From Methanococcoides sp. LMO-2 (GTDB lineage: Archaea > Halobacteriota > Methanosarcinia > Methanosarcinales > Methanosarcinaceae), in the NCBI RefSeq assembly GCF_038432375.1, contig NZ_JBCAUS010000002.1:808282-872281 (forward strand): a DNA stretch of 64,000 nucleotides, in the 5' to 3' direction. The notes beneath the pieces were generated by a model, which was not told where the DNA came from, ran no database searches, and was given only the letters and a program-made list of their open reading frames with translations. The position numbers and the translations under genes were made by a program. This document shows positions 18,082 to 32,942 of this stretch, one piece after another. Numbering within the stretch: position 1 is the first letter of the stretch; the number at the start of each line of letters is the position of its first letter.

Positions 18082-19275
18082 CTGAACCTTGATATTTATA
18101 AAAATTTGAGCAGGGGGGTTGAAAGCACATACATCAACCTGAACCCTATCCAGCGGGGAGGAGTACTTACCGCTGAAGCCAGAAAAGCAACACTTGAATT
18201 CGCAGATGGTTATTCAGTTTGTGACTACTGTTTCGAGTCAAGGGTCGATCTGGTCCAGAACCCGCCTGTAAGGAACCTTACAGCAGATATAGCAGAATTC
18301 CTGAACATGGACGACGTGAGGTTCACAGCCGGATGCCGACATGCGAAATGGGCGGCTATGCACATGGTCACACAACCCGGCGATACCATTGTACTGGATT
18401 CACTTGCACATTATACATCATACCTTGCAGCAGAAGCGAACCAGCTAAAGGTCGTAGAGGTACCGCATAGTGGCTACCCTGAATTTACTATCGATCCTGA
18501 GAAGTATGCGGAAAAGTTCGAGGAAGTAGAGCGCAATACCGGGTCACTGCCTGCGCTGGCGCTGCTGACACATGTTGACTATCGTTATGGGAATGTGGCA
18601 GATGCAGCATCCGTAGGGAAAATCTGTAAGGAATACGGCGTACCGTTCCTGCTGAACACAGCTTACTCATCAGGAGTTATGCCAATTGACGGGAAGAAAC
18701 TTGGCGTTGACTTCCTTTGTGCTTCAGGACACAAAAGCTGGGCAGCATCCGCACCAATGGGAATACTTGCAACAACCTTCGAATGGAACCAGCAGGTATT
18801 CGACAAATCTACAATCAGAGGAGACTGGAGCGGACGTGGCTTCACCAAGAAGGAAGTAGCCCTGTTCGGCTGTTCTCCTGTCTTCGGAGCACCGGTAATG
18901 TCACTGATGGCATCATTCCCTGCTGTTGTGGAACGTGTGAAGCACTGGGATGAGGAAGTAGAGAATGCAAGATACCTTGCATCACAGATCGAACGTATCG
19001 AAGGATTCCACCAGATGGGTGTCAAGCCTACAGAGCATACACTTGTAGCTTTCGAATCCCTTCCGTTCTTCGAAGCTGCTTCCAAATCAAAGAAACGTGG
19101 TTATTTCCTGTACCATGAACTGAAGAAACGAAAGATAATGGGAATACAGCCGGGCATGAGCAAGAGTTTCAAACTGAATACGTTCGGGCTCAGCAGAAAG
19201 CAGATAGAATACGTTGCCAGAGCTTTCCTTGAGATCGCAAGGAAATACGACATACCGGTGGAGGATGAAGCATGA
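18082..19275 (+). CDS. pscS: Sep-tRNA:Cys-tRNA synthase (SepCysS)
   Basis: PLP enzyme that converts O-phosphoseryl-tRNA(Cys) to cysteinyl-tRNA(Cys), the tRNA-dependent cysteine route of methanogens. Seen: NLNPIQRGG, the paired cysteines of GYSVCDYC, the PLP lysine in SGHKSWAAS and a further cysteine in LFGCSPVFG. The first standard start is TTG at 18106, but upstream in the same frame LNLDIYKN resembles the N-terminus that I recall for other SepCysS proteins; that frame opens with CTG at 18082, just after an in-frame TAA and 9 nt after AGGGGG. I therefore place the start there, giving about 397 residues. Methanosarcina species carry two SepCysS paralogues; this one is divergent around CRHAKWAAMHM. 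Overlaps the DUF169 gene by ATGA. Confidence 0.88.
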   Translation: MNLDIYKNLSRGVESTYINLNPIQRGGVLTAEARKATLEFADGYSVCDYCFESRVDLVQNPPVRNLTADIAEFLNMDDVRFTAGCRHAKWAAMHMVTQPGDTIVLDSLAHYTSYLAAEANQLKVVEVPHSGYPEFTIDPEKYAEKFEEVERNTGSLPALALLTHVDYRYGNVADAASVGKICKEYGVPFLLNTAYSSGVMPIDGKKLGVDFLCASGHKSWAASAPMGILATTFEWNQQVFDKSTIRGDWSGRGFTKKEVALFGCSPVFGAPVMSLMASFPAVVERVKHWDEEVENARYLASQIERIEGFHQMGVKPTEHTLVAFESLPFFEAASKSKKRGYFLYHELKKRKIMGIQPGMSKSFKLNTFGLSRKQIEYVARAFLEIARKYDIPVEDEA

Positions 19276-20441: not shown

Positions 20442-20675
20442 TCAGGCTTTTTTGATATGCACTTTCCAGATATTGTTCTCTTCTTTATCGATACCAAGAA
20501 TAGTATGCCCTTCGTTCTTCACACTTTTAGGAACATTCGACACTGCAGGAGGATAATCAAAGATAACAGTAAGGTTATCACCACTTTCCAGCTCTTCTAA
20601 CTGTAATTTTGTTTTTACAAAAGTAAAGGGACAAATCTCCCCCCTGAGATCTAATTCAATTGGTTCTTCAGTCAT
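20442..20675 (-). CDS. TusA-family sulfur carrier-like protein (variant motif)
   Basis: 77 residues with the TusA fold outline: ELDLRGEICPFTFVKTKLQLEEL at the N-terminus and a C-terminal strand NNIWKVHIKKA. The active-site motif reads CPFT rather than CPxP, so the cysteine and first proline are kept but the second proline is lost. There is a single cysteine. It probably carries sulfur or interacts with a redox partner. It is convergent with DUF169 and divergent from the corrinoid protein gene. Compare the canonical CPYP copy at 7708-7944. Confidence 0.8.
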   Translation of the reverse strand: MTEEPIELDLRGEICPFTFVKTKLQLEELESGDNLTVIFDYPPAVSNVPKSVKNEGHTILGIDKEENNIWKVHIKKA

Positions 20676-21567: not shown

Positions 21568-21622
21568 GATACATTTATATAGTAGATAATACAATTCACG
21601 ATTGTGATTCACTATAGTGAAT
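21568..21622 (+). promoter_or_regulatory. TATA box and 16-bp palindrome before the winged-helix regulator
   Basis: A TATA-like ATTTATATAG lies around 21570-21580. The perfect palindrome ATTCACTATAGTGAAT occupies 21607-21622, where transcription from that TATA would begin, with a further ATTCAC...GTGATT half-site pair just upstream (21592-21609). This is the layout of a repressor operator, probably for the regulator encoded from 21672. Confidence 0.6.
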
Positions 21623-21671
21623 TTCTCATATCAACCGATATAAAAACATTACAAAAAAAGGAGCCAATAAA

Positions 21672-22068
21672 ATGAGGGATCGTTTTTGTTGATAATCACA
21701 AGGAAAAAGTACAGATAAAGAAAAAGATCGAAGATCCAAAGGACAAAGGCCTTAGAAAAACGATAGAAGGACTGCCACCTTCTGCAAAACTTGTCTATAA
21801 AGTACTGGAATACGGCGGTCTCCTGACACAAAAAGAGATAGCCGAACAAAGTTATCTTCCCCCACGTACTATTCGATATGCATTGGGCAGACTGAAGGAC
21901 GAGGATTTCCTGCAGGAAAGATTCTACTTCAAAGACGCAAGGCAAAGCCTGTATGGTCTGAAAGAAATACCCGGACAACAGGTCACAGGTGAAGCATCCC
22001 CACAGGGAGAATTTGAATTCGCCAATGTGTATACCGTTCCGAAGGAGTACGAAGTATTGGCAACATAA
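21672..22068 (+). CDS. Winged-helix (MarR-like) transcription regulator, frame interrupted at a T5 run
   Basis: GGAG (21660-21663) stands 8 nt before ATG 21672, but that frame stops after MRDRFC. From 21688 the next frame reads on without a stop to 22068 and encodes VDNHKEKVQIKKKIED..., a helix-turn-helix segment (LLTQKEIAEQSYLPPRTIRYAL, split: LLTQKEIAEQ then SYLPPRTIRYAL) and a wing, about 130 residues in total. Removing one T from TTTTT at 21683-21687 joins the two parts. In the downstream frame no ATG, GTG or TTG occurs before TTG 21883, which lies after the recognition helix. So this is a sequencing error, a real frameshift mutation or a programmed shift. Probable regulator of the corrinoid gene or of itself. 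Confidence 0.7.
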
Positions 22069-22860: not shown

Positions 22861-23634
22861 TTAGTAATTTTCAGCATCAATAGACGTAATGGAGGGATTA
22901 TTTCCGCAAACCGGACATTTTGGATTCCTGTTCACAGTTATCTCATCGAACCTCATTCCGAGGGCATCGTAGTAGATCATGCGCCCTACCAGCGACTTTC
23001 CAAGGCGGGAAATATACTTCACGACCTCTGTTGCCTGCATGGTACCCACTACTCCGGGAAGAATTCCCATGACACCGGCAGTCCTGGCTGCATCTGTGGA
23101 AGGTGATGTGGAGAAGATGCAACGGTAGCATGGCCCTTCATGAGGGAGGATTGTCATTACCTGCCCTTCGAACATGAAGATGCTGCCATGGAAGAGGGGC
23201 TTGTTATGGAGCACACATGCATCGTTGAGGAGATAACGGGTGGCGAAATTGTCCGAGCAGTCCACAACAACGTCGTAATCAGCGATAAGTTCCTCAACAT
23301 TGTCGGGACTCAGGCGCATGTTGTAGGATACTACCGTAACGTCGGGGTTCAGACTTTCCACATATTCCTTTGCAGACTCGACTTTCGGCCTTCCAAGGTT
23401 GCCTGCATGGATAACCTGGCGCTGCAGATTGCTCATTTCCACAACGTCATCATCAATTATTCCAAGCTTCCCAATGCCTGCAGCAGCAAGGTACTGTATC
23501 ACAGGTGAGCCGAGCCCGCCCGAACCAACACACAATACCCTTGATTCCAGAAGGCGCTTCTGCCCTTCCTCGCCCATGGGCTTCATAATAATATGCTTTG
23601 CATATCGTTCCTTTTGATCGGGAGTTAATTTCAT
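22861..23634 (-). CDS. HesA/MoeB/ThiF-family E1-like adenylyltransferase (copy 2, catalytic Cys absent)
   Basis: 257 residues, closely similar to copy 1 at 8021-8839: GSGGLGSP nucleotide loop (about residue 38), EMSNLQRQV, VDCSDNFATRY, and the Zn cysteines CYRC and CPVCG. At the position where copy 1 has PSCQEAGV this protein has DAARTAGV, so the conserved cysteine is alanine. It may adenylate a small beta-grasp protein without forming a thioester or persulfide. It ends DAENY and lacks the Cys-containing tail of copy 1. Divergent from the Mrp operon. Confidence 0.9.
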   Translation of the reverse strand: MKLTPDQKERYAKHIIMKPMGEEGQKRLLESRVLCVGSGGLGSPVIQYLAAAGIGKLGIIDDDVVEMSNLQRQVIHAGNLGRPKVESAKEYVESLNPDVTVVSYNMRLSPDNVEELIADYDVVVDCSDNFATRYLLNDACVLHNKPLFHGSIFMFEGQVMTILPHEGPCYRCIFSTSPSTDAARTAGVMGILPGVVGTMQATEVVKYISRLGKSLVGRMIYYDALGMRFDEITVNRNPKCPVCGNNPSITSIDAENY

Positions 23635-32644: not shown

Positions 32645-32719
32645 TAGCGGGGGATGGATTCGAACCATCGGTCTACGGGTTATGAGCCCGTCGGGATCTC
32701 CTGGCTACCCCACCCCGCT
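32645..32719 (-). tRNA. Initiator tRNA-Met (CAT), copy 1
   Basis: 75 nt on the minus strand. Acceptor AGCGGGG/CCCCGCT with an A1-T72 pair, anticodon stem ACGGG/CCCGT with loop CTCATAA (anticodon CAT). The three G-C pairs of the anticodon stem and the A1-U72 pair are initiator features. Discriminator A; CCA not encoded. The sequence is identical to copy 2. Confidence 0.93.
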
Positions 32720-32867: not shown

Positions 32868-32942
32868 TAGCGGGGGATGGATTCGAACCATCGGTCTACG
32901 GGTTATGAGCCCGTCGGGATCTCCTGGCTACCCCACCCCGCT
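32868..32942 (-). tRNA. Initiator tRNA-Met (CAT), copy 2
   Basis: Identical 75-nt gene, offset from copy 1 by 223 bases. A minus-strand TATA-like CCTTTATCTATC at about 32983-32999 is conserved beside both copies, so both are probably transcribed. Confidence 0.93.

Follow-up and report, generated by a model that had tools for sequence, protein, structure and literature searches.

Amino-acid leader peptides that act by attenuation consist of a short open reading frame whose critical codon specifies the amino acid of the regulated pathway. In prfB, while the UGA codon awaits RF2, the tRNA paired with CTT in the P site moves by +1 at CTTT, according to the accessible sections of one account (PMC12421855). 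Slippage is also described at hungry codons, in the work of Gallant and others, where an aminoacyl-tRNA is scarce; a 2016 review reports that a slow A site weighs more in +1 than in -1 shifts and, in its accessible part, says of starvation-specific trans-frame proteins that "no examples are known" (PMC5009743). Cellular recoding is reported for archaea in the -1 direction, proven for the Saccharolobus alpha-fucosidase and presumed for the magnesium chelatase of Methanocaldococcus and Methanococcus (PMC8211752, PMC3711429), and the accessible text of a 2021 review names +1 frameshifting in archaea only for a haloarchaeal virus (PMC8211752). In Methanosarcina mazei, the SelB-like factor MM1309 (aEF-X) is reported to bind Cys-tRNA-Cys (PMC4329189).

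Here we describe a regulator gene whose start codon lies out of frame with the protein that follows it, in a 64 kb window (the whole stretch of DNA that was analysed, from the methylotrophic methanogen Methanococcoides). The gene is laid out as follows, the reading frames and ribosome binding site being read from the sequence, the leader also from comparison, and the shift site from the YTT TGY shared by leaders:

21657 to 21663, plus strand: Shine-Dalgarno sequence AAAGGAG
21672 to 21692, plus strand: frame-0 leader ORF M-R-D-R-F-C-stop (ATG AGG GAT CGT TTT TGT TGA)
21684 to 21689, plus strand: putative shift site, with TTT in the P site, +1 re-pairing on the TTT at 21685-21687 and the Cys codon TGT in the A site
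21688 to 22068, plus strand: +1-frame ORF of the winged-helix regulator, with 0 Cys codons (ORF, Pfam, AlphaFold2)
21736 to 21960, plus strand: winged-helix domain, residues 17-91 of the +1 ORF (AlphaFold2; Pfam HTH_24 at residues 43-75)

A preliminary description of this DNA had reported a ribosome binding site and an ATG followed by six codons and the end of the frame, with an intact frame downstream, and the window sequence bears this out. The leader runs from the ATG at 21672-21674 to the TGA at 21690-21692 across a T run at 21683-21687. The regulator frame has its upstream limit at a TGA at 21673, is open over 21688-22065 and stops at 22066-22068, and in the window sequence it holds no ATG, GTG or TTG before the TTG at 21883. 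Automatic gene callers could truncate such a gene or label it a pseudogene.

The layout resembles prfB in its short frame-0 start, its slip site (CTTT in prfB, with a T run read by tRNA-Phe in some genomes), a slow A-site codon beginning with U-G, a purine-rich AGGG upstream and a product that relates to whatever its A-site codon senses, as far as the accessible sections of the prfB account describe these traits (PMC12421855). It differs in that the A-site codon is the Cys sense codon TGT or TGC whereas prfB has the stop codon UGA, in that the gene encodes an archaeal winged-helix regulator, and in that the part resembling a Shine-Dalgarno sequence is only modestly complementary to the 16S tail. 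Because the stop codon and the release-factor gene are absent, we did not class the element as a prfB element. Like the leaders of attenuation, the short ORF has a critical codon that matches the amino acid of the regulated pathway, but here this codon would redirect the frame into the regulator itself and not steer a terminator or a separate downstream start. The likeness to hungry-codon frameshifting lies in a slip under aminoacyl-tRNA scarcity, which the 2016 review treats as an effect of starvation (PMC5009743) and which here would be built into a regulator. The archaeal -1 cases share cellular recoding with this gene and differ in direction, in concerning enzymes and in their signals.

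The preliminary description had presented the gene as broken at the T5 run and had proposed a comparison of strains. All five of the nearest relatives in our collection share the leader arrangement of the window, and over the 18 bases from ATG to TGT the six sequences vary solely in the third base of the Arg codon; this base is T, C or A and, in the window, is the first T of the T5 run. By this comparison, the conserved element is [T/C]TTT G[T/C] rather than the T5 run. Within the class, 83 of 237 genomes match the leader pattern, and in a set drawn from the phylum, which overlaps with the first, 46 of 392 do; reversing the pattern as a control left a single site per scan. One match without a regulator (L156) looked like chance and was set aside.

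A protein-based homolog search, with 237 loci plus the window, yielded 202 distinct places, and in 123 of them a leader ending in YTT TGY (Phe or Leu, then Cys) precedes a regulator in +1; the selection of these leaders required [CT]TTTG[CT] in the right frame, and they are distinct in sequence yet phylogenetically non-independent. Conditioning on the motif only, and not on the frame, placed the regulator in +1 in 109 of the 110 places with the first form of the motif and in all 122 copies of a looser one, and among these 122 the distance from the motif to the helix core takes 17 values between 25 and 79 bases. A further set, not chosen by the motif, comprised the 91 homologs that have no in-frame ATG, GTG or TTG: the leader is present in 89, and of the remaining two, L019 is a contig end and L196 a degenerate second copy. 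The recurrence of the leader before this protein family across the phylum goes far beyond chance; the out-of-frame start is conserved, and the description of the gene as broken does not hold.

Named carriers of the leader include Methanococcoides, Methanolobus, Methanosalsum, Methanothrix/Methanosaeta, Methanoregula and a Methanospirillaceae MAG, and ordinary starts prevail in haloarchaeal homologs and in some paralogs. On a tree of the homologs (195 rows and 78 columns, 7 of the 202 places having been dropped for short, X-containing or duplicate cores), in which few forks are resolved, the leader needs 6 gains or losses versus a mean of 60 with shuffled labels. Methanosalsum natronophilum (L008) has an ordinary ATG start and the Methanosalsum-like loci L011 and L099 have the leader, which is also missing from L217 (genome G153, same family); L008, L009 and L217 look like losses in this comparison. 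Locus L009 lies on contig PWFU01000014.1, which is binned as Candidatus Dojkabacteria and is probably mis-binned, because its regulator locus is near-identical to that of M. natronophilum. Among the 79 homologs without a leader, the paralogs L173, L200 and L207 start in frame with ATGAG[GT]GAT and are possibly relics of the leader or, alternatively, its ancestral start; since they lack the slip and Cys codons, they are not frame-toggled versions of the shift site.

Within the 123 leaders, the sequence from the ATG through the Cys codon is nearly completely conserved, except for wobble positions and one G/A exchange, and conservation collapses 3' of the Cys codon. The slip codon, which in the P site is able to re-pair in +1, is TTT in 69 and CTT in 54, and the codon before it is CGN in 119, TGT in 2, CAT in 1 and CTA in 1. 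The fewest switches needed on the tree are 9 for the slip codon and 7 for the Cys codon. Frame 0 ends directly after the Cys codon in 41 of the 123 leaders and within 7 codons in 121. As to a stimulator resembling a Shine-Dalgarno sequence upstream of the shift site, the pairing of AGGGATC with the 16S tail exceeds that of most synonymous spellings but ranks only 24th among 288 such leaders; with so modest a rank a strong anti-Shine-Dalgarno stimulator was rejected, and a weaker element resembling a Shine-Dalgarno sequence is possible.

The product of the +1 frame is a predicted HTH_24/MarR-like winged-helix protein; the preliminary description had called it a winged-helix regulator, and Pfam, AlphaFold2 and Foldseek agree on that fold. 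The HTH_24 match scores 23.6 bits against a gathering score of 21.9, and the AlphaFold2 model has block-mean pLDDT values of 89-96 over residues 31-90 and a mean of 69.6 over all residues, because both ends are disordered. The best Foldseek matches are mostly MarR-family proteins, at TM-scores to the query of about 0.43-0.51; solved MarR chains gave weak profile matches (best E 0.009), and no NCBIfam model matched the regulator at E 0.001. The protein shares its fold with MarR-like and HTH_24 regulators and differs from them in having only about 75 ordered residues.

Cysteine is nearly missing from these products. Counting identical proteins once (122 distinct from the 123 leaders) and measuring ordinary-start proteins from the start nearest the core, we found 107 of 122 leader-bearing proteins free of Cys versus 37 of 75 ordinary-start homologs, and a content of 1.3 versus 9.6 Cys per 1000 residues. 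In the helix core alone, the Cys-free counts are 106 of 121 and 41 of 77, respectively, and among the non-leader homologs outside the mostly haloarchaeal set 5 of 21 proteins are Cys-free. The depletion is confounded with phylogeny, and after phylogenetic correction, with only 5 independent pairs, it is non-significant. A Cys-poor product would fit a protein that has to be made during cysteine shortage.

Three neighbouring genes in the window give its context, SepCysS and TusA both lying upstream of the regulator gene:

18106 to 19275, plus strand: SepCysS, O-phospho-L-seryl-tRNA:Cys-tRNA synthase (NCBIfam TIGR02539, 503.9 bits, cut-off 365; PDB 3wkr and 2e7i)
20442 to 20675, minus strand: TusA-family sulfurtransferase (Pfam PF01206)
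22861 to 23634, minus strand: ThiF/MoeB/UbaA-type E1 (profile matches)

Across leader genes, the neighbours include, with one protein each above the NCBIfam cut-off, CysRS, SepCysS, CysD, O-acetylhomoserine/O-acetylserine sulfhydrylase, MetX, CysK and NifS, together with TusA (Pfam) and two proteins that score below the cut-off, one resembling sulfite reductase and one resembling a sulfate permease. Sulfur or cysteine genes occur at 50 of the 117 loci with a leader (907 kb). They occur at 1 of 20 random loci, for which genomes of the same set were sampled (240 kb), and at none of the 58 ordinary-start loci, mostly haloarchaeal (341 kb). In these figures the ten queries, chosen from neighbours at leader loci, bias the count toward those loci, and the unequal lengths of the loci make a comparison per kb the apt one. 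The only Rfam matches at the gathering threshold in the window are six tRNAs. Two of these tRNA genes, at 32645-32719 and 32868-32942 on the minus strand, have identical Rfam scores, lie 223 bp apart and are probably a tandem duplicate.

Upstream of the leader, the regulator gene carries candidate promoter and operator elements:

21574 to 21581, plus strand: TATA-like box TTTATATA, putatively that of the regulator gene
21595 to 21608, no strand assigned: operator-like palindrome 1, TTCACGATTGTGAT, with an exact TCACNATNGTGA at 21596, conserved in relatives
21608 to 21621, no strand assigned: operator-like palindrome 2, TTCACTATAGTGAA, with an exact match at 21609

The pair formed by TTCACGATTGTGAT and TTCACTATAGTGAA provides the sole exact sites in the window. 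In the genome to which the window belongs, the perfect 14-mer occurs in three places, namely at the regulator gene, in the promoter of tRNA-Cys(gca) and at a third locus, L239, and with one mismatch allowed the palindrome has 13 sites versus 5 for the reversed pattern. An exact TCACNATNGTGA lies upstream of 22 of 56 distinct tRNA-Cys genes, and is absent from the other 34, in a set that was in part deliberately retrieved (matches came from 14 of 30 genomes); it precedes 0 of 29 other tRNAs and occurs in 1 of 56 shuffled tRNA-Cys upstream regions. In the regulators' own promoters it is found exactly in 24 of 122 and with at most one mismatch in 61 of 122, versus 0 and 2 after shuffling, and upstream of ordinary-start homologs in 0 of 73. 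The leader loci (907 kb) hold 73 distinct exact copies and the random loci (240 kb) hold 0; the nearest downstream feature of these 73 is a regulator leader in 29 cases and a tRNA-Cys gene in 11, and single copies precede NifS, CysK, an OAH sulfhydrylase and a radical-SAM gene.

A tandem operator occurred at five places in 196 scanned genomes, two of them at regulator genes and three at tRNA-Cys, of which one, L291, is a degenerate copy recognised by eye and without an ARAGORN call. The window's own palindromes overlap by one base and thus fall outside this tandem pattern. In some lineages GTTAACNNNGTTAAC replaces the palindrome; 13 of 122 leader promoters match it exactly, and so do 3 of 73 ordinary-start promoters, a finding that counts against reading it as an operator; 42 of the 122 own promoters contain neither palindrome within one mismatch. 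By association, the regulator may bind the palindrome. A TATA-like box stands 10-45 bp upstream of the exact palindrome in 20 of 24 own promoters and 17 of 22 tRNA-Cys promoters, and 0-30 bp downstream of it in 3 of 24 own promoters. The palindrome thus tends to lie downstream of the TATA-like box, a position which suggests repression and, with it, that the regulator would act as a repressor.

Several further observations concern these sites. Of the 14 genomes with a tRNA-Cys match, 5 had more than one: one genome (G004) has two tRNA-Cys copies 193 bp apart, both with tandem palindromes (one half being imperfect in one of them), and another (G244) has three matches within about 5 kb, near the regulator. 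The degenerate copy L291 retains a perfect tandem operator. At L239 (C2:669355), the third perfect TTCACTATTGTGAA has a divergent HTH-like frame on one side and, on the other, a large frame that by eye encodes a secreted protein; tRNA-Cys is about 3 kb away. An element TTGCCTCAAT / TTTTGCCGC, also seen by eye, stands shortly upstream of the TATA box of regulators (families f5 and f7), of several tRNA-Cys genes and of haloarchaeal homologs, and is possibly an earlier operator of this family.

We consider it probable, from these comparisons, that charged cysteine tRNA is sensed through a programmed +1 ribosomal frameshift, which thereby controls a regulator of cysteine and sulfur metabolism. The ribosome would initiate at the ATG behind the good Shine-Dalgarno sequence and read Met-Arg-Asp/Asn-Arg-Phe/Leu, until YUU occupied the P site and the Cys codon UGY the A site, where two outcomes would be possible. 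With Cys-tRNA plentiful, UGY would be decoded and translation would terminate within a few codons, leaving a short leader peptide and no regulator. With Cys-tRNA scarce, the P-site tRNA (that for Phe, or for Leu on CUU) would move one base forward to UUU, the next A-site codon would be one for Val or Ala, and translation would go on to complete the nearly cysteine-free winged-helix product. The regulator would then bind TTCACNATNGTGAA palindromes, or other sites in some lineages, in its own promoter and at tRNA-Cys and sulfur or cysteine genes, so that scarcity of Cys-tRNA would raise the regulator of itself, of tRNA-Cys and of sulfur genes. The polarity of such a circuit is odd, since repression of tRNA-Cys under low Cys-tRNA is no simple homeostasis: if the regulator represses tRNA-Cys, cysteine use would be lowered in shortage and the tRNA would not be restored, and if it activates some sulfur genes, a classical starvation response would result.

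The same site could also work at a set ratio, a constant fraction of ribosomes shifting at YUU UGY and the link to cysteine being incidental. All of the frame evidence is equally compatible with such a shift, and prfB too uses +1 slippage on UUU or CUU, with TTTTTGA in some species, in the accessible sections of its account (PMC12421855). We nevertheless hold a set ratio to be unlikely, in view of an A-site codon that is Cys, in both spellings (TGT in 72 and TGC in 51), in every leader found, YTT TGY being present in 123 of 123 leaders of a set selected by that motif. The near absence of Cys from the products speaks against it as well, as do targets and neighbours that include tRNA-Cys, SepCysS, CysRS, CysK and sulfur assimilation genes.

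Roughly half as probable as a set ratio, in our estimate, is that no frameshift takes place and that the regulator starts at a non-canonical AUC or AUU, at 21679 in the window, the ATG ORF being a mere upstream leader peptide. ATC or ATT does stand at the same +1 position in the leaders, and the codon before RAT, which is AGG in 117, AGT in 5 and GGG in 1 of the 123, creates a GTG in +1 in its five AGT variants. The Shine-Dalgarno sequence points to the ATG instead, GGAG or GGTG lying at most 22 nt from the nearest ATG in 116 of 123 leaders with a spacing of 5-11 nt, and ten leaders have their ATG two codons farther upstream and retain the frame. Against the non-canonical start are also two features of the codons: the third base of the Arg codon varies among T, C and A, which is silent in frame 0 and non-silent in +1, and the base preceding TTT is only T or C, though the third position of the +1 Val codon would be free. 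Internal reinitiation was rejected as well, 93 of the 123 leader genes, including that of the window, having no ATG, GTG or TTG between the shift site and the HTH core and 30 having one. Readthrough of the TGA was rejected because it leads into the wrong frame and because in 82 of the 123 leaders the codon that follows Cys is not a stop.

Four-base decoding or a -2 shift would deliver the regulator in the same frame as +1 slippage in the P site, and the frame of the product cannot tell +1 from -2; YTT TGY fits the known +1 design of prfB, the tRNA calls considered were those of ARAGORN with anticodon gca, and we regard these two routes as improbable, slightly more so than a non-canonical start. 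As for the base-calling error or recent phase mutation of a homopolymer that the preliminary description had entertained, and likewise RNA polymerase slippage at the T run, the T5 of the window would allow them, but the out-of-frame layout is common to deep lineages, all 122 motif copies from many assemblies share one frame relation with no toggling between relatives as a phase-variable gene would have, and the CTT slip codon of 54 of the 123 leaders, where the T run does not exceed three, as well as relatives with CTT TGC and T4, removes the T run as the cause; the relatives refute base-calling error and recent phase mutation, and polymerase slippage is rejected with them. The remaining suggestion of that description, a programmed frameshift of the regulator, has gained strong comparative support as regards the programming, and shifting in vivo is what we infer from it.

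The accessible text of the GeneTack cluster paper makes no mention of this regulator family (PMC3711429). Among the matches listed in a search that covered open PMC papers, none was a prior description of the leader element. On balance we think it likely, with somewhat less assurance than for the cysteine-sensing frameshift as such, that this is the first natural gene in which a hungry sense codon programs expression. Methanogens and related archaea would possess in it an ancient +1 switch, convergent with that of prfB, where a Cys codon would measure charged Cys-tRNA and gate a nearly Cys-free regulator of tRNA-Cys, of itself and of sulfur metabolism.

If this reading is true, archaea would possess a cellular programmed +1 frameshift, and its product would be a starvation-specific one, of a kind for which the accessible part of the 2016 review knew no examples (PMC5009743). 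The trick of prfB would then be re-targetable from a stop codon to an amino acid, and methanogens would have in it a control circuit for cysteine and sulfur.
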